Shown: piece by piece, positions 19,879 to 39,684 of the stretch
Numbering within the stretch: the stretch's first letter is position 1
How the letters are laid out: each line of letters starts with the position of its first letter
Assembly: GCA_003194525.1 (NCBI GenBank)
Contig: NBIV01000060.1
Coordinates: forward strand, 248,001 to 312,000
DNA: 64,000 nucleotides
DNA from: Gracilariopsis chorda
Taxonomy: Eukaryota > Rhodophyta > Florideophyceae > Gracilariales > Gracilariaceae
Direction of reading: 5' to 3'
Translations under genes and position numbers: made by a program
Notes under the pieces: model-generated
What the model was told of the DNA's origin: nothing
Seen by the model: only the letters and a program-made list of their open reading frames with translations
Database searches by the model: none

Positions 19879-21775
19879 TTAGAGGCCGAGTAGCTTTCTG
19901 GCTTTCTCGGCGAGTTTCTTAGGAGTGCGTTTTCGTAGCAGTAAACGCTTCAACAAAACTGGCATGTCTTTGTAAATTCGATCGAGAGGTTCTAAGGTAT
20001 CTTCTTCTTTTCCAAGTCCTTTCCAACGAACGTGAACAAGCAAACATTCCTTAGTCTCGACCAAGTTGAGAAGCCGGGAGACCGGCATGCCAGTTTCTGA
20101 AGAAACGACATCAGACATTATCCCATTTTGATCTAAAGATGCGTCGTGATAGAATTTCAAACGCGTTCCGTGAACTTCATCGTGTGCGCCATTTCTCAAA
20201 TCCTCTACTTGATAGACGTAGTTCGAAAGAGCCTTAACCACGCGTCGTGGCCTACGCCAGCGCAAAGCCAGCTTCTCTCCTTCATGAAAGTGTTCGCGAG
20301 CAACCAGCACGAAATCGCCTTTCTCAAAGTTTGGCAACTGCCCTTTCGAGTCCTTGGACCGTGACGCCTCGTGGTTGCGCCGGAGATTGCTCTGGACCAG
20401 GGAGTGTAGGTTGGCAATCTTCGTTTTGAGTGCCTCAATGTTGACAAATTTTTCCAGCAGTGCTGCCTTCACAGTCATAGGTTGAGTTTTTGCCGTGCGA
20501 ATGAATGTAGCAATTGGAGGAGTGGGCTCTAGACCGAGAAAGGCGGTGATGGGAGGTGTGTTTCCGCGTTGAGGGGAGGGTGCATTGTTCAGTGCGCTTT
20601 GAATGGGTAGAAGGTCCGGCCACTCGGAGAAGTCCATTTGAAACTCAGACACAAGGGCACGAAATGTACGAATGACTTCCTTTCCTAGGCGTTCTACTGC
20701 TCCATTGCTCCACGGGGTGTACGGCAAAGTAAAATGGTGCGGCACGCGAAGAGTCTTCGTAACCATGCGCACAGTTTCATTACGAAAATGCGTGGGGCCA
20801 TCAGACATTTGCCCCTGTGGTACATTGAAAGCGGCGCACCAATCAATGATTGCCAATGCAGCGTTCTCCGCGGATGTTCCAGGAGTTGCAAAAAACCACT
20901 TGTAGTCAGAATGATCGCCATGAAGCATCAAGATGTACTTCGGTCCCGTTCGACTGTTTCCGATTTCAATGTAATCGAACTGGAGCAAGTCGTTGGCTTT
21001 TGCTCGTGTACGGCATGTCCAAATGGCCGAGGTACCTTTTCGCCACCTATGGTGGAGATGCAATGGATGCAGAACTCTACGAACGTGTGGACGTCGTCTG
21101 CCAAGGCGCTCCAATGATAATGATTGCTCAAAATCTTCAAGGTGGTGTGCCTGCCGCGGTGGCTAGCTGGTCTGGTGTGTGCAATTATGCATAGCCGTAG
21201 CTGAAGATTTTTGGAACCATCTGGGATCCAAACAGCTCCGTCCGAAATCCGCCAGAGGCCCTCAGTGGAGTGGGAGGTCAGAGAACGGTCGTTAGCATGG
21301 TGCGTTTGTTGGTCAGCGATTTCAGCCGGCGAGGGCCAGCAGAAATGTTCAGCATTCGATGAAGGCAAGACGGGAATTGTGACCAAACGTCGGACGGTGG
21401 GGGGAACGGACCAGCGAGTCATCAGGTCGGTCCATACGTTGTCCAAGCCCGTGATGTGGAAACATAGATGAGGGTAGGAGCTTAGACGAACAGCCAAACG
21501 AAGCACCTTCCTAATCGAAGATGGGCTGAGATCAGGAAGCAACGAAAGAGGATCGAATAAAAAAACTAAGTTGTTGTGATCTGTGAACAAATCGAATCCC
21601 GCAGCGGTGGCTGCCAACCAATGCATGCGTTCTACTGTGGCCATGATCGCAAAGCCTTCTTTCTCCAGAGTGGACCATCCAATTTGGGTTGCATTAAAAC
21701 GTCCGGAACAAAAAGTAAGTGGGGTGTGTCGCTGTTCGCTGTGGGGCTTCGATAGGTCTTCGTAGGGTACCTGGG
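19879..21775 (-). pseudogene. Family B RNase H C-terminal part, integrase and chromodomain-like end
   Basis: Two overlapping frames. The first (21775-20928) continues RNase H: HTPLTFCSGRFNATQIGWS, EKEGFAIMATVERMHWL, TDHNNLVFLFDP, then the integrase zinc region with CIHC. After a frameshift near 21000 the second frame (to 19879) has the integrase core with LLQFDYIEIG, MSDGPTHFRNE and WSNGAVERLGKEV, i.e. all three acidic residues, then a basic C-terminal part with RWRRPRRVVKAL and a chromodomain-like LLVHVRWKGLGKEEDTLEPL. The integrase half is one open frame of about 370 codons, much better kept than the RT. Confidence 0.85.
21765..21775 (+). repeat. Left target-site duplication of the LINE
   Basis: GGGTACCTGGG, identical to 25931-25941. 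Removing the LINE and one copy rejoins the family B RNase H frame (ATQVP to YEDLSKP on the minus strand), which proves both edges. Confidence 0.93.
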
Positions 21776-21837
21776 GGCACAAGCGATCCGCCTTCACGTG
21801 GTGTGCCTGTCTTCTCGCAAGAGAAGCGAAACGGATC
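21776..21837 (+). ncRNA. HDV-like self-cleaving ribozyme at the LINE 5' end (predicted)
   Basis: Pairings seen by hand: P1 21776-21781 (GGCACA) with 21802-21807 (TGTGCC); P2 21785-21790 (GATCCG) with 21832-21837 (CGGATC); P3 21791-21792 with 21800-21801, only two clear pairs; P1.1 21795-21796 (CA) with 21808-21809 (TG); P4 21811-21816 with 21821-21826 closing a GCAA tetraloop; J4/2 begins with C21827 in CGAAA, the position of the catalytic cytosine. The order and nesting are those of HDV-like ribozymes, which are known at the 5' ends of R2 and other LINEs, where they cut the element RNA from an upstream transcript. The cut would fall just before G21776, exactly the element's first base. The short P3 is the weak point. 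Confidence 0.82.
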
Positions 21838-21884
21838 TGCGGTAGGGTCTCCAACGGAGACCAGCATAATTCAGGCTGTGGAAG

Positions 21885-24800
21885 ATGAAAAAATCCAAAA
21901 ACAACAGCGAAAGAAGAACATTACGCATACTCCAGCTTAACTGCAGGAGCTTACTTGCGACAGTGAAACGAAGCTAGATCGCGCGCATAGCTCATGCTTG
22001 GAAGGTGGACATCCTTTGTCTTCAGGAAACTCACTTCCAGGAGTTAGATCGGACACCTCGAATCCAAGGTTTCAAGTTAGTAGGAAGATGTGACAGAGAT
22101 GCCGACTTTGGACAACAAGGAGAAAGGGGAGGAGGAGTGGCAACGTATCAACGAGACGACCTCACAATAGACCTATTGACAGACGAGCCAATTCAGAAAT
22201 GATTAAAGAGAGTGACAGTACTAGTCAGGTCTCCAAGAGGTCCGCTCTCAATTGCTAATGTATACGTTCCTCCACAACTGCACGCTACAGAGTGGTACAA
22301 GGCATTGGAAGACCAGGATATGGTAGTAGCTGACAGCAACACATGCGGGTCGTGGTATCCATCAAGAGCGGAAGCTTCTGGAATCGCATTAGAAGAGTAC
22401 CTCGGAGAAACCGAACGCGTCGTCCTCAACGTAGATGGGGTCGCAACCCATACGGATCCAAGGCATGGAACGCAAAGTGCGATAGATATAACGGCGATAC
22501 CAGAAAAATGGGTTCCGCTAACCACATGGGAGGCATCCGACCTTCCATTTTCAGACCATCACCCGTGCCTTGTGTCCATAGATATTGGGCGTAAGTCTTG
22601 CGTCCAGAAGAAATGGAAGACTTGGAGTATCAAAAATGCTGACTGGACCAAATTCCAAACGTACGTAGACGATAACCTTAGCATGATTGAAGATAATAGT
22701 ATAGAGAGCTTAGACGAACAGTATCATCGCTTTTGCGAAGTAGTGCTAGGAGCAGCAAGGATGCATGTACCATTTGGAAGACGGAGACGCGAAGCACCAT
22801 GGTGGAGTCCGGAAGCATCGGGAGTGATCCAGCTGAGAGCAGAGAAATGGAGAGAGTATCGAAACGATCCGAGTGCAGGAAATAGGTTAGCATTACAGCA
22901 GGCCCAAAAACATGCGCGAATAGTTATTGACAGACTCAAACGGGATGCATGGCAGGAACTCACAAGTTCACTACACCCAAACGATAATGATGCAAAGTTA
23001 TGGCGAATAACGAAGGCAATTGAAAAGGGAAAATGGGAACGTCCATCACTTTGTCCTCCAGGGGGCGAACAATGGTTTGATAAGAAGAGAGCGAAGTGGT
23101 TTGTCAAATCAGAGATCAGAAGTGTGCGGACACACGTCAAAAACAGAACAGTGAGAAACGAGTACAGACGGGCACTGGACACATATCATAAACATGCAAA
23201 AGAGTCAGTGATAGGAAAGGTATTTCAACCTCAACACCTTGATGTGGAGTTGAGAAATATGACCCCGAAGAAGGTAGGAGGCCCGGATGAGATACAGATA
23301 GCTTTCCTACAGAATCTTCCTCCAATTGGAAAAGAGTGGCTACTGCACCTTATAAACAGAAGTTACAAGGAAGGGCGGACTCCGGCAAAGTGGAGATTAT
23401 CCCGACTCATTCCAATTCCTAAACCAGGCGTCAAGGGAAAGTTTCGGCCCATATCTCTCACATCGGTCGTGGCACGGCTTGCGTAACGGATGGTTAATAG
23501 GGAATTCATGAAATGGTTGGAGCCAAAACTCCCTGCGTGTCAAGCAGGATTCAGAATGAGCCGAACGACAGACGAACATATTGCTGCCCTTTGCGAACAT
23601 ATAACGCATGGCTGGCAGCAACGCCGACAGACATTAACACTTTTCTGTGACTTCTCTAAGGCTTATGACTGCGTTCAACATCACCGACTGTTAGTAAAGC
23701 TGGCGAATCTTGAGTGTCCGACTTACCTCTGGAGATGGATAAGAGCATATGTAATGGACCGCAGATGGACTTGCATATGGAACACAGCTGATACCAGACC
23801 TTATGTAGTAGCTCAAGGTCTACCACAAGGCGGGACTCTTTCCCCAGGACTATGGCTTGCATATGTCGCAGATCTTCCCGAGCGAGTGCAGCAGGGTGAT
23901 TCAAGAATTGCGGTAACAATGTTCGCCGATGATGTATCCATATCAGCGACACAACGAAAACTGGATTTCTGTGCCCATGTTATTCAATCTTCAGTACAAA
24001 GACTGGAGCAACACTGCGAAGAAAATAACATCAAGATGAATCCGAAGAAAACCACACTAGTTCCGTTCACATACGCACAATGGAAAAAAGACCGTAGCAA
24101 GTAAGAAGTACAAGTAGCTGGAACGTGGATAGAGCTTTCAGTTTTCACGAGATTTCTAGGAGTCATCATGGATAGCTGCCTTACATTCCACCATCATATA
24201 CACAAGGTGGCTGCACGGTACAGGTCACGGTCGCGCATTCTTCGGTGTCTAACTGGAACCACGTGGGGGGCAGACTGGGTGACCATGCACGTATTTATAA
24301 TGGGTTTCGTTGAACCCATTGCAAGGTATGCAGCGTGCGTAGTCATACAGAATGCTCTATCTTGTGCAGTACAAGAATTGGAAAGAACCCGAAATGAAGC
24401 AGCCCGAATTCAAACAGGCTGTACACGATCTTCCCCTGTGAGAAAACTTAGAAACCTTTTGAGTCTACCCTCTCTTCAAGAAATTGCGGCTGCACAGGCA
24501 GCACAGTTATACGAGAAAGCGAAACTATGTCGTGCAGAGGATCCAACAACTATTGCTTTAGCACTTAACAGAGAGTCTTCGGCACGTATTCGCAAGAACA
24601 GGTCGTCATTCAAGAAGACAGCAGAGCAATTATTGGCTGAGTGTGCTTTGTTGCAGCTCAACAGAGCACCACTCCCAACAGAGCCAGGCGTGGCCCAAAC
24701 AGGAGGCATCAGCTTCTGTTACACGTCATGCACTAAGGAAGATTCTGTTGAACATCTGCAGTAACAGGCTCTACAAACATTGACAAAGCTCCCACCGCCC

Positions 24801-25900
24801 GATTGCGAGATCTGGAGTGATGGCTCAGTGGGGCGACCGAAGTGGCTTCAAGAAGCACAACCGTTACGAGCAGCTGTGGAGTGGGACGAAGGATGGTACA
24901 CGGGATCGATTGATTATCCGAACAGCTTCACGGCCCATGCGGAGGTTGTTTCCAACTTTCAAAACAAACATAATCGGACACCGAGTATAGTGATACGATA
25001 TGACGATGGATTTGTGATGGGATACGAAATAGACGCTGAACATCAAGAGTTACTGGATGCCGATGGACATAAGCTTAAATGGCGTGTACTTAACATTTCC
25101 GAGGTTTGGGGAAGTGCTTTTGCGATCTGGTGGAATGCATCAATTACCCCCCAAACTGGCATGGAGCCCGCAGGGATAGGGACAACGTCGTTTTATGCGG
25201 GAACATGGGAAATATATCACTCACTTCAAGTTGTTAAGGGAAGAATAGGATCTGGGTGGACTGGACACATAAGGCTGATAACGGATTCTCAGAGCGTGGT
25301 TGAGAGTATTCGAGGAGCTGTAAGAGATCAACCGTATTCTTTGCAACAAGTATCACGTACGAGATCGGCAAAACATGCACTATAGATATGGTCTGGATAC
25401 CGAGCAATTGGGGTTTGCACCGCAACGACCTTGTAGACAGTTTGACCAAAGAAGCATTGGAACTACCTCAGCATTTGCAGATAACCGTGCCAGTGGACTA
25501 CGCAGAAGTGAAACGAAGAGTGAAGTCTCGAACACGATGTAGGAAAATTATTCAGTCTATACCTCAGGAGCTCACACAAGTGGTATCACAAAGAGAAGCG
25601 GAAGTTACATTGTCGCAGTTTGCAGTAGGCCATACACCTCTTTTGCACCCGCTCGGAACGCACTTGTACAAGCAAAGAATCGTGTGTACTTGCCGACCGG
25701 GAGTACTGAATGATGTGGACCACTTTGTTCTAAGGTGTCCTTTGCGAACAAGGTCTCGGCGAACCTGCCTGCCAAGTATGCGAGAAAGACACGGGATGGA
25801 TGTTGGAGAAATCATCAAAAAGTGGCCGGAATGTATGCTGGTCTTCCTAGCGAGAGAACGCTTTTTTCACATGAAGCGATCTACACTATGTAGGAATTAG
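21885..25900 (+). pseudogene. LINE polyprotein: endonuclease, reverse transcriptase, RNase H
   Basis: Start ATG 21885, then one frame of about 1338 codons. Endonuclease (about 21920-22600): LRILQLNCRS, DILCLQETHF, SAIDITAIPE, SDHHPCLVSI, as in APE nucleases that nick the target. RT (about 23240-24100): GGPDEIQIAFLQ, KFRPISLTSV, DFSKAYDCVQHHRLL, GLPQGGTLSPGLW and MFADDVSIS, the FADD catalytic box. RNase H (about 24790-25440): IWSDGSVG, TDSQSVVES and WIPSNWGLHRNDLVDSL. A Cys/His tail follows (CTCRPGVLNDVDHFVLRC). Stops: TAG 21975, TGA 22200, TAA 23484, TAA 24102, TAA 24762; frame changes before 25352. The rest of the frame is kept, so decay is by point changes. Confidence 0.92.
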
Positions 25901-25930
25901 ACTAGTGTACCCGTAAAAAAGAGAGAGAGA

Positions 25931-25941
25931 GGGTACCTGGG
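25931..25941 (+). repeat. Right target-site duplication of the LINE
   Basis: GGGTACCTGGG directly after the A-rich/(GA)n tail; identical to 21765-21775. Confidence 0.93.
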
Positions 25942-33246: not shown

Positions 33247-33317
33247 GAGAAGTAGCTAGCAGTTTACCTTAGTTGAGAGATTGAGAAGGAATTATGATAA
33301 GTTCTACCACAGGGTCG

Positions 33318-33480
33318 CAATTCTTCTTCTTCTTCTTTTTTATGGGCACACATTACCTGATTACGACATTGTGGTAGAATCTAACTCTACAGGGGAGCTT
33401 TTCTTCGTCTAGCATGCTAAACTCTATGTACGTAAAGCTCCTCGGAAAGAAAGATTTTCTCTGTCCCGTAGTACCAATCT
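33318..33480 (-). repeat. LINE 3' end fragment
   Basis: On the minus strand, AGATTCTACCACAATG, CGTAATCAGGTAATGTG and then A-rich (AAG)n match the other LINE 3' ends at 29722 and 35240. Only the last 100-150 bases remain. Confidence 0.55.
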
Positions 33481-33640
33481 CTATTCATGTCCCCGGAATG
33501 TAGCCGATGACTGCTGCTTGCTCTCACCTTGCAGCAGCCGTGTTGCGCTCACTAGCTACTATCTCGGAACATGGAAAGATTAGTACCAAGCTTCTACGGG
33601 AAGACCTGAGATCGGATCCATTTCGTTCTGACGCGACTCG
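33440..33640 (+). repeat. Diverged inverted repeat, right arm
   Basis: Counterpart of 33046-33246: MTAACSHLAAAVLRSLATIS and LLREDLRSDPFRSD on the plus strand. No function recognised. Confidence 0.55.
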
Positions 33641-35239
33641 CCTTTTCCATTCTTTTCTCTGCTATTCCTTCCCTTTCCACCAGAGGACGTCAGCTAAGGG
33701 GCACACCACGACAAGGCGGATTCCAATGTGCCTCGTTTTCGTCGTCTAGAAGCACTAACGACGTTCTACCCACCCTTTCCTCTTTACCCTTGGCGATTTC
33801 GGGTAGTTGAACCGACCTAACACACGTGCGTTTCTTCAATCCTGGCGCAAGTTCCGTAAAAACCCTGTAAAACCATTCAGATCCTTGTACGGGCGGGCCT
33901 GTTTTCTTCCATTATCCACGCGATGCTGAGATGCTGCGTGAGGTAAGACTGCCGCCTCAGCTTCCGTAGGAAACTCCTGACCCTTCCGGGAAAACTCAGG
34001 GAAAGGCTGGCAAGATCTTCCGGGAAGCGCGTGCGTCGTGCCTACCGTTTCGCACAGCTTAGCGGGGGCCTTTTCTGGACAGTGCCACCCAGGTCGCTTG
34101 GGGCCGTCGGTCTGCCGACTGCCTGGTCGCTTTTAGAGACATCCCAGGTCGACGAAGGCGACCAGTCCGCCGATCGCCTGGGCGAGGGGTCGCAATTAAA
34201 CAATGTGCACCCATAAAGAACAACAACAAACAACGAAGTACGTCTAATACGGTTCAGTAGCCAGCGTAAATAAAATTATTTTAACTAGCGAAACGGTCTA
34301 GAAACTTCTGTCCAAATGGGAGCGCCGACACAACAAGTATGGCTTGCAGGCACACATGCCCAGAAAGATGTTGCACAGTAAGCATAATCAGGCATTGGTC
34401 GGTTATGGTTGAGGAGAGACACCAGAGGTGATCACTCAGTGGCAGCATTATCGGAAGTAGAAGCGGAGTACACTGATACCAACAGTGCGGCTGCCGACTA
34501 ATAACTTCACTGCAAAGCGGATTGCAGACAGTGATGCCCAAACTATCGATGTGCAATTTATGCAAAAGCAGTAAGCTATTTCGGAGTGCGTCGCAAGCGC
34601 GGGTCGAGAGAGTAGTTGGGATACTGAATGGGCTCGGAGGCGAAGGCGAATAATAGCGGGCACAACGTCCCCCTCTAGCGGTTGCTCCCTGACGAAGGAC
34701 GTCCAAATACCGCTCGGGCAAAGTTTATTCGAGCAGCGTGAGCTCCACGAGATCAGTAGCCGGCGACGGTGCTGTGCGCAGCCAGCAATGCAGGGCCATG
34801 CACAACGGCTGTGCACAAGCAGACAACCACCCACGGAGATTTATTTTTAGGTGTATTTGCACCGCTTACGCCGTTTTAAGCCGCCGAAGATGCGTCCACC
34901 TCCGCAATAAATATACTGCTACCTACGCAGCTCCTTCAAGTCGAAGGGGAACACAGCCGTTTCTGGGTATCAGAAGTTTCTCTCTAGAGAAGAGCTTTGT
35001 AGCATAGCGAACAGACGCTCGCACCTCAGAAAGCCCGTGGTCTACTATCTAAAACATTTCAACCGTGTACCCTCGCGCCCTACACTATCATGATCGTACA
35101 AGATAAGGCAGGGAAGACACGCACCACATTCACACGACACAAACACCAATTTGTAAGTACAGACAGCCAGGCTGTGCCTTACATCTTGGCGGTTGTGGTG
35201 TTGTCGTCACGCCTCACATTGTACCATCGTAAATGGGGC
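33641..35239. other. No gene recognised; GC-rich duplicated segment at 34088-34188
   Basis: A segment of about 55 bp starting CCCAGGTCG is repeated in diverged form (34088 and 34143), with 8-bp inverted arms CTGGTCGC/GCGACCAG at 34123-34130 and 34158-34165. The minus-strand ORFs at 34281-34834 have no known motif. Confidence 0.4.
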
Positions 35240-37176: not shown

Positions 37177-37860
37177 ATGCTCACACAAACCAGCGGTCTA
37201 GCAGCATTGTTGCTGTACTTTTCATCCTTCCTTCTTCTCGCCAACGCGAGGTACTTCTCATTCCCGGCCATATCGCTCATGGCGTGAACGATTTCAATGA
37301 CAACCTCCTGGAAAACTACTATTCATCGTCCAACATATTTTCCTCATGTCCTCCGCTCGCAGAAATGGGCGTCATCACACCGGGTGGCACAAACCCCTCG
37401 CTCATTACGAAGAACACATCACAGTCATCTTGAGTGGCCACCATCGATGCGTTCGATTTTCGAACCTTCCTTACATTTCCTCCTGGCGCTGAACCATTCA
37501 ACATCCCAATATCTCAGGCACCTGCTTTCAACTTGTTCTCGAGTTCTCTGCTTGAATATGTAACACCGTCTTCCTTTCCAAACTCCAGCGATCCCAACGT
37601 AGTCGGAGAGGTTTACCTCTCAGCAGGAGTGAACAATAACGTCACAGTGGCGGATTGGAATCGTGCCCGCAGGACGCATAACGGGGACTTGTCGCAGTGG
37701 AACGGCACATGTGTACATTGAAATGCAGAATGTCCTACCAGATGGGTTGTTAAGCATGTGGGACGTAGGCGTCAGCACGGCACTAACACCAACTGACTCC
37801 CTTTCTCTCAGTCTGTTTGGCGGCATTCCAAACGTGTTAGGGGCGTCAAAGTTGTCGTAG
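37177..37860 (+). pseudogene. Decayed gene for a secreted protein
   Basis: An ATG at 37177 starts a signal-peptide-like stretch (LAALLLYFSSFLLLANA). After a frame change near 37275, a second frame reads NDFNDNLLENYYSSSNIFSS, PPLAEMGVITPGGTNPSLIT, a TGA at about 37432, then DFRTFLTFPPGAEPFNIP and SDPNVVGEVYLSAGVNNNVT. A further frame change near 37660 leads to AGRITGTCRSGTAHVYIEM, LPDGLLSMWDVGVSTA and SLFGGIPNVLG before TAG 37858. The compositional continuity over three frames suggests a real protein of about 225 residues that is now broken; introns could also explain frame changes but not the TGA. Family not recognised. Confidence 0.55.
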
Positions 37861-39684
37861 CCCATCTGTAATCACGATGCTAAATCGCTTTGCGCTGGAT
37901 ACCGTTGTGGTGAGAAACCACTGCAAGGCACTAGCGAGTCCCGCTCAGGGCACATGCACTTCCGCCCGTTGAGGTGTGCCGGCCTTCCGAAAAGGCTATA
38001 AAATACTATAACGTTACGCCGGATGAGGAAAACAAATGGAGATGCGATTGGGTCTATTAGGGAAACCTAGCCGTCGAATAGATAATTAGCCTTCTACTTG
38101 TAGAAAGTGAATACCGTTGCCTTGGAGTTAAAGAGGTTTTTAAAGGCATATCAACACTTTCTTTCCCTCCAAAAACCGTCATTAAAGCACCAAAACACCA
38201 TAACAGGTTGAAGTCCGTGTGCAATTCCGAGAAATCTCGCCATATTCAATCACCCGAAGGTTATCACAAGCCGGTAGTGCATGTGGCGTAGATTTGTGAT
38301 TGATTTTGGGGCAATTGGCACGCCGTCAACACGCGCGACGAATTCGATGCATATGGAAATTGGAACTGTTCGACGCTGTCTATTGTTCTTGTTCCCCCTT
38401 TCAAACTACCACACTGTATGCCCTGAAACTTTCCTGTCTTGTTTTTTGCTCAATAAGCATTTATACGAATCTTGTAAAGCGAAAATGTAATGAATGTAGG
38501 CTGCGTTTTGGATTATGAGATTGGTGCGGTCATCGGAATGGGGGTGATGCGACGAAATATATTTTGAACAGTTACCTTGTTTGCAGGTTTACCGGTCTCT
38601 CCGCTAAGTATGGTAGCACTTTATTCTATTATGTGTGGATGCGCAATTGAACTGTTTGCATCTTTTCTAGTGTTGTCTGCGTCGTAGGTTTTATCTTTCT
38701 ATCAACCGATATCACCGTTTTTGCACTGTCGCAGGGTAACTAACTTGTAGTTCTATTGTGTTGATCCCAATCGCTCTTTGAACCCACGTGTGCACTCATG
38801 GTTGTGCACAACGATGACAAATGAGTTTCTACTCTCTTTGGATGGCTGATACTACACTGCTTAGGAAGAGAGCTTCCTTGCGTCGTTCTTCTGGCTTCTT
38901 CTAGGCACTCGCTACTCCTCGAGCACTGGATCACATTAGAGCACTCGCTCTCCTTTGTTCAGTACTCACACCGCTAACCCTGCCCTTCAGGTAACGGATC
39001 ATTTCCCGCTTCATATTTCTCATCACCAAACCACTCGTCATTCCTTTTTGCTGTACTCCATATTTCCCATAGCATCATTCTTCAGTCCAAAAACCGCCGA
39101 AGGAGAAAAGTTCGTTCAAGTACAAATCATGAAGTGCGCCTTGTGAACTGAAAGTCTTTTTCATCATCAGCCCTCATTCGCTATTCTCTTCTTCCACCAG
39201 ATTGTTTACATTACTCTCCACTTATATCTTTCGATAAGGCTTGTAGCACGCTCTGAACGACCGTTGGTTTCAGCGAATTCCCAGAACGAATCATCATTGA
39301 TCTTAGAGAACATGAAATCTCCAACTTCCTTAGTTAACTACGTGTACTGTGCTGGCGGCCGCCACCGCCGTCAAAGGCACATTAACCACTCACGCAGCGT
39401 CCAGAGAATGCTCTGGAGCATTCCAGTTTCACAAATACCGATTCCATGGCAACCCGAAGGTCATCTTTGACGAGTCGCTCTTGACCTGAAATGAGGTTGT
39501 AGGGGCGATCACCTGCACTTTAGAGGGGAAGCTGGTAGTTCGTTGGGGTGGAGGCCAATACCTTTAGGCGACGATGATGGGGTCTACCTGGAAGAGAATT
39601 CCTTTACTGAGCTAGAATAGGTTTTGAGACTTGCTAGCTTTGGTACTTCAGATTACTGCAACTTGCAATCAGCGGCCCTGGTGC
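37861..39684. other. No gene recognised
   Basis: ORFs up to 72 codons only. The sequence is AT-richer from about 38500. Confidence 0.4.

Follow-up and report, generated by a model that had tools for sequence, protein, structure and literature searches.

HDV-like self-cleaving ribozymes have been published for retrotransposons of the R2, R4, L1 and RTE groups (PMC3774820, available text). In the literature seen, LINEs with such ribozymes are described from animals and trypanosomatids, and HDV-like ribozymes as such also from plants (PMC4035085, accessible sections). Among the closest known systems is L1Tc/ingi of the trypanosomatids, in which the ribozyme, Pr77, forms the very 5' end of an endonuclease-reverse transcriptase LINE, as does the ribozyme described here (PMC4035085, same sections). 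The initial annotation of the present locus expected that an endonuclease-RT-RNase H LINE would extend the set of ribozyme-bearing elements; this holds for the host group, but not for the type of element, which is already represented by L1Tc of Trypanosoma cruzi (PMC4035085, in part). Like the short elements of the alga, the trypanosomatid NARTc and RIME are internally deleted and keep the ribozyme and the 3' end, as far as the same text describes them. Compared to L1Tc/ingi, the host is here a red alga and the short forms go down to about 110 nt.

The R2 ribozyme releases the LINE RNA, as is proposed below for the algal LINE (PMC3774820 and PMC3414825, available parts), and the R2 SIDEs, which consist of the ribozyme and the LINE 3' end, resemble the algal short elements (PMC3414825, available part). 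R2 inserts specifically into 28S rRNA genes, and many R2 RNAs are cut within the flanking rRNA (PMC3774820 and PMC3414825, in the portions available), whereas the algal LINE occupies dispersed sites with duplications of 7–14 nt and has its predicted cut at the first base of the element. Compared by description, the R4/Dong and RTE ribozymes cut at the LINE 5' junction, as is likewise predicted here, but differ in clade and host (PMC3774820, in part).

The window analysed is a 64,000-nt stretch of genomic DNA from the red alga Gracilariopsis chorda. This host agrees with a phycobilisome-domain protein of the assembly (P0122, 182 aa), for which a match with 100 % identity over 55 % of the query is named as a G. 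chorda protein. We consider it highly probable, judging from sequence, that the first 66 nt of the RNA of a LINE in this window are an HDV-like self-cleaving ribozyme, and the ribozyme trick known from other retrotransposons probably operates in red algae too. The fold is conserved with compensatory changes, it is present in several LINE lineages and its 5' boundary is sharp. The candidate lies at 21775–21840 on the plus strand, as are all features of the LINE given below, and was delimited with a descriptor, Rfam, covariance models and pair counts; the predicted cut is 5' of G21775. P1, P2, P3, P1.1 and P4 of the nested double pseudoknot are all present and in order, and every part listed in the initial annotation was seen on reading the sequence, although three of the helices have other lengths than it gave. 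P1 had been counted as 6 bp and has 7: GGGCACA (21775–21781) pairs with UGUGCCU (21802–21808, assigned by pair counts), the first pair being the G.U pair G21775-U21808. HDV ribozymes usually have such a G.U pair next to the cleavage site. The 6-bp P2, GATCCG/CGGATC (21785–21790 and 21832–21837), is present as described, but it is longer by two pairs, G21783-C21840 and C21784-G21839, formed around a bulged U21838, so that the strands of this pseudoknot helix, the 3' one assigned by pair counts, are 21783–21790 and 21832–21840. P1.1 exists, but it is better read from the pair counts as one pair, C21795-G21809, with C21795 inside L3, than as the two proposed; of the 69 distinct sequences, 63 retain it.

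As already observed, P3 has two clear pairs, CC/GG (21791–21792 and 21800–21801), which together with the 7-nt L3, UUCACGU, occupy 21791–21801; in HDV-like ribozymes P3 is about 3 bp closing an L3 of 7–8 nt. The 6-bp P4 with its GCAA loop and the CGAA in J4/2 were found as annotated: CUUCUC (21811–21816) and GAGAAG (21821–21826) form the hairpin at 21811–21826, and J4/2, CGAAA (21827–21831), begins with the presumed catalytic C21827, the conservation of which was seen in two of the alignments discussed below (A4 and A5). Directly 3' of the ribozyme, reading of the sequence showed a second hairpin, GGUCUCC-AAC-GGAGACC (21846–21862), and a hairpin resembling it is also present in relatives, again by reading.

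The whole LINE copy, from the ribozyme to an (AG)n tail, spans 21775–25929, as traced by sequence reading, domains and genome matches, and its ORF is broken by stops and a frame change. The annotated 11-bp target site duplication was confirmed, although its right frame is 21764–21774 (AGGGTACCTGG, with the end fixed by other copies) and 25930–25940, located by sequence reading and identical to it. The likely start codon of the LINE ORF is the ATG at 21885–21887, followed in this copy by a TAG at 21975. The assignment to the EN-RT-RNase H LINEs is clear for the reverse transcriptase (PF00078, 23415–24065; E 1.1e-32 in the read-through and 5.1e-27 in the piece 23487–24104), but weak for the endonuclease and for RNase H. 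An apurinic-type endonuclease domain is present in two pieces at 21978–22565, with PF03372 at E 3.8e-5 (24 bits, cut-off 24.5) and PF14529 at E 3.3e-4 (21 bits, cut-off 27.4). Pfam finds no RNase H in the window copy; the last RNase H motif is matched in a short alignment to one relative with E 0.001, and the comparison of the first motif gave only E 0.6. As PF00075 is carried by 17 of the 20 best relatives, the last-motif match makes an RNase H likely in this LINE as well. Against solved structures the reverse transcriptase gave matches named R2, LINE-1, 'reverse transcriptase-like' and bacterial intron RT, which indicate no clade. Since the sequence left of the LINE has RNase H and integrase-zinc-binding domains on the opposite strand, the LINE sits in an LTR retrotransposon.

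A strict descriptor (P1 7, P2 6 and P4 6 bp, L4 of at most 12 nt, C[AG]AA) matched one place in the 64 kb, 21775, and none in 100 dinucleotide-preserving shuffles, whereas a loose descriptor matched two places in the window and gave 50 matches in the shuffles, 41 of 100 having at least one; only the strict descriptor is therefore informative. The frequent loose matches and the shortness of the helices are what could speak for short inverted repeats having come together by chance in a single decayed element. With no strict match in the shuffles and with covariation across several LINE lineages (A5), which in practice refutes it, we regard that explanation as negligible. Of 4227 Rfam families, the best for 21700–21900 was the CPEB3 ribozyme (RF00622), the match of which is full-length but by itself weak (16.4 bits against a cut-off of 35, E 0.054). 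The CPEB3 model shares with the window copy L3 UUCACGU, CCUGUC around the P1 end and GCGAA in J4/2; the CPEB3 ribozyme is named mammalian by Rfam, and P3 is 3 bp in its model compared to 2 bp in the algal ribozyme. At the gathering threshold Rfam had no match in the window, and at E ≤ 1 none at the ribozymes of seven related loci; at six further loci nothing was found at the ribozymes, and the sole result was an inverted repeat of microRNA-like type in flanking sequence. Two weak genome-wide matches to the CPEB3 model were dropped, because a covariance model built from algal copies (R1, see below) finds nothing at either locus and because, at that E limit, the CPEB3 model also matches 12 of 14 prokaryotic controls. 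One exact ribozyme pattern had no match in viral contigs.

The 5' end of the element could be fixed by its relatives. A first genome search with the LINE 5' part gave 41 rows, 40 besides the window copy; 27 of the 41 begin at 21774–21776, and 16 of these at 21775. Since other LINE copies that are preceded by unrelated sequence start with GGGCACA, the element most likely starts at G21775, giving a P1 of seven pairs with the G.U pair adjoining the cut. The ribozyme stands precisely at the 5' end not only of the annotated LINE but of many copies. The predicted cut is one base earlier than had been placed; in the window copy this difference was masked, as the target site itself has a G at the junction. 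The boundary was profiled with 81 references aligned at the first P1 base, 78 of which have distinct 12-base upstream flanks; the profile does not include L132, L133, L140 or copies lacking the 5' part. Over these 78 insertions conservation rises from 0.0 bits at -1 to 1.4 bits at +1, where 70 have G.

Cap copying can put an extra G at the 5' ends of LINEs, so it was considered whether the first G is unencoded, added at insertion as a copied cap or an untemplated base, with the cut then 5' of G21776. The eight insertions with another base at this position would fit such an addition. We nevertheless find it very improbable, given the G in the great majority of insertions, the usual G.U pair at the cut of HDV ribozymes and the first P1 pair itself, which is G-C in 32, G.U in 27 and A-U in two of 69 distinct sequences in A5, i.e. 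a standard pair with the matching P1 base in 61, and unpaired in eight.

With a start at G21775, the target duplications of other copies were searched at a minimum of 7 nt, and those found were 7–14 nt long. In family 1, the family of the window LINE, 14 of 27 rows have one: seven end exactly before the first G, four before that point and three at +1 or +2, where the right copy shares the base. The duplication of L015, one of the four, lies inside the element and was rejected as chance. Family 3, introduced below, has duplications in 20 of 37 rows, five of them exact, eight at +1, four at -1 and three further out; among those at +1, L082 and L121 are one place and the duplication of L115 is inside the element. 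Upstream of the family 1 insertions a weak T-A-A preference was seen at -12 to -10 (65 %, 65 % and 51 % of 29), where an 11-bp duplication would begin. It is possible that this is a nicking preference of the LINE endonuclease.

Related ribozymes were found across the genome. In the aligned family 1 copies the core is kept, and the P4 loop differs in length and sequence between copies and families. Searches with divergent copies led to family 3, in which 35 other places (among 45 rows) match one segment over about 100–115 nt with 87–93 % identity. The LINE endonuclease part had 89 genome matches of 29–100 % identity (85 of 109 candidates scored). Twenty LINE regions were picked for diversity and for reaching the ORF start, and from each 501 nt around and upstream of that start were taken. 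A covariance search of the host genome had been suggested for deciding whether other copies keep the pairing. Covariance model R1, built from family 1 copies only, matches 17 of the 20 regions, none of which was used in building it, with E 2.8e-5 or better, and misses L126, L135 and L137; covariance model R2, for which families 1 and 3 were used, likewise finds 17 of them, with E 0.0071 for the weakest match. The ribozymes of the different lineages have different sequences on both strands of the helices. P1 is GGGCACA/TGTGCCT in the window family, GGGTACA/TGTACCC in L141 and GGACACA/TGTGTCT in L130; P2 is GATCCG/CGGATC in the window family, AACTCG/TGAGTT in L122 and AGCCCG/TGGGCT in L130; and P4 starts with CTCCG and ends with CGGAG in L130, L131 and L136. 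Some LINE copies are without the ribozyme (L126, L135, L137, L019 and L020). In L019 and L020 (C74 and C24) the LINE 5' end is replaced by an unrelated sequence common to both. In L032 (321–416) two ribozyme 5' parts stand head to head, inverted, with one shared junction, perhaps as a product of twin priming or of an inverted insertion.

Covariation was counted in several alignments. A1 held 20 of 27 distinct family 1 forms; L011, L028, L032, L039, L040, L042 and L044, whose 5' half is missing, rearranged or interrupted by indels, were omitted. A2 held 55 of 58 references, with L089, L114 and L121 omitted as duplicates. A4 held 35 of 75 rows spread over the families, omitting L037 and L045–L047 (broken pairs), L132 and L133 (decayed) and others. 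As rows with broken pairs and decayed rows were left out, the A4 figures are flattering, and A5 was therefore made with all 75: 21 rows of family 1, 17 LINE regions and 37 of family 3, with 69 distinct sequences and 24 pairs. The seven forms omitted from A1, the decayed L078 and L079, copies whose ribozyme is the same as that of an included row, and families 2 and 4 stand outside A5.

In family 1 alone the covariation is unconvincing, with two pairs having two-sided changes in A1 and 256 of 500 shuffles as high; it becomes convincing only with the other families added. In A5, 88.4 % of the cells are standard pairs (shuffled mean 85.1, slid versions 32–45 %), 86 cells have two-sided changes (25.1 on average in shuffles, no more than 30 in slid versions) and the covariation score is 0.214 (shuffled 0.156, slid versions at most 0.096), with none of 500 shuffles as high in any of the three. 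Since copies share ancestry and changes within a family are inherited by descent, these cells are not independent events. Two further A5 figures are unremarkable. Two-sided changes occur in 12 pairs, against a shuffled mean of 8.7, but 25 of the 500 shuffles are as high and slid versions also go up to 12; the further pair types number 37, a value that 55 of the 500 shuffles reach. In the flattering A4, 91.0 % of cells are paired, 52 have two-sided changes compared to a shuffled mean of 15.4, and the pairs with such changes number 11 (mean 7.1; 6 of 500 shuffles reach that number, and slid versions do not exceed 8).

A lack of complementary changes in P1, P2 and P4 had been named as what would speak against a ribozyme; such changes are present in all three helices of A5. 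They occur in five of seven P1 pairs (90.9 % of cells paired), in four of eight P2 pairs (82.2 %), the pseudoknot included, and in three of six P4 pairs (92.2 %), some of them resting on one or two sequences only. P3, with 91.3 % of its cells paired, and P1.1 are both conserved, but neither shows a compensatory change. The two middle pairs of P2 are open in 43 and 36 of the 69 sequences, mostly of family 3, in which, as we read the alignment, the pairs outside them take over. The C after P4 is kept at the catalytic position in at least 90 % of the sequences of both A4 and A5, exceptions in A5 including L037, L084 and L139.

These changes bear on whether the 5' stretch could be mainly a DNA element, i.e. 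an internal promoter fixing the start at G21775, with the fold secondary or inactive. A promoter would also predict a conserved LINE 5' end, and in L1Tc the Pr77 sequence is reported to serve as promoter and ribozyme at once (PMC4035085, in the available sections). It predicts, however, neither the two-sided changes in P1, P2 and P4 nor a nearly invariant C after P4, and a mainly promoter role is in our opinion very improbable; it is possible that the stretch has both roles.

For the ribozyme, comparison with R2 and L1Tc points to a likely task, the freeing of the LINE RNA from a longer transcript started in the flank. The LINE would be transcribed from a promoter upstream in the flank, and the nascent RNA would fold into the nested double pseudoknot. 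With C21827 as the general acid, cleavage 5' of G21775 would then yield a LINE RNA whose 5'-OH end coincides with the first base of the element. Reverse transcription starting at the nicked target could run to the 5' end of this RNA, and new copies would regain the full ribozyme whatever the flank. The cleavage, the upstream promoter and the 5'-OH RNA as template are what we infer from the conserved fold.

Many copies are internal deletions, which consist of the ribozyme, the next hairpin and the LINE 3' end with the (AG)n tail. The shortest family 1 elements, counted from the first G to the 3' duplication, have 111 nt (L043, with an ambiguous duplication) and 115 nt (L025), and family 3 has short elements of 108–112 nt, among others L087, L090, L093, L095 (110 nt), L096 and L102. 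Elements of about 110 nt, hardly more than the ribozyme, bear target duplications. That some elements contain little besides the ribozyme, the next hairpin and a tail suggests that these suffice for mobilisation in trans. Many family 3 short elements end in AACCTTTC or its repeats and not in an (AG)n tail, and AACCTTTC is perhaps what that LINE lineage recognises as its tail.

Two other repeat families in the window have ribozymes or similar sequences. The family 2 ribozyme, HDV-like, is at 33612–33733 on the minus strand (R1 E 2.5e-6 for 33733–33615; partial match of model R2, E 2.7e-4). Family 2 is a SINE-like repeat of about 535 nt (window 33300–33860, minus strand) with a GAA-type tail; 499–540 nt are common with 12 copies, and 40 places including that in the window were scored, with 96–100 % identity. 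Its ribozyme is about 125 nt inside the 5' end of the repeat and has a long P4 arm, and reading of the alignments gives a G-C pair as P1.1 instead of C-G. In divergent copies a P4 pair is changed from A-U to G-C (L117, L118 and L080) or broken (L119), also by reading. The 3' part of the repeat is found in L048 too. In L080 (140–370) a divergent family 2 copy has a family 3 short element, with the duplication ATGCGCAATC, inserted immediately after its ribozyme.

The ribozyme-like part of family 4 is at 37948–38045 on the plus strand (model R2 E 3.6e-5, R1 only E 0.013), in a repeat at about 37850–38140 on the same strand with a (CA)n tail and 40 scored places including that in the window. That the match at 37948 is due to chance was rejected, as eight of eight other copies also match covariance model R2 with E 6.1e-9 to 2.7e-4. 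Family 4 has a long P4 loop; as its J4/2 is CCAAA and its first P1 pair is broken, its ribozyme-like sequence may be inactive. Scans of the repeat loci found no tRNA.

In both families the ribozyme is roughly 110–125 nt inside the repeat. Only tentatively, and with rather more doubt than confidence, we suggest an old and diversified HDV-ribozyme system in red algae, in which several LINE lineages and short-element families share one ribozyme ancestor, the elements of about 110 nt, little longer than the ribozyme with its adjoining hairpin, have reached many sites, and families 2 and 4 carry the ribozyme internally. If this is true, self-cleavage in families 2 and 4 would remove the repeats' own head; if active, they would be retroposons with a ribozyme acting internally and not at the 5' end.

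Among the open-licence papers listed in our searches we found no report of an HDV-like ribozyme from red algae. The ribozymes of the red-algal LINEs appear to belong to a known type, here in a group of hosts new for it, and they are more varied than expected. The covarying set places LINEs with ribozymes in a further major eukaryotic branch and is relevant to the question of whether LINE ribozymes are inherited with the LINEs or have been gained repeatedly. With many divergent natural variants, some hardly longer than the ribozyme, it also provides a ready test series for what a LINE RNA needs at its 5' end.
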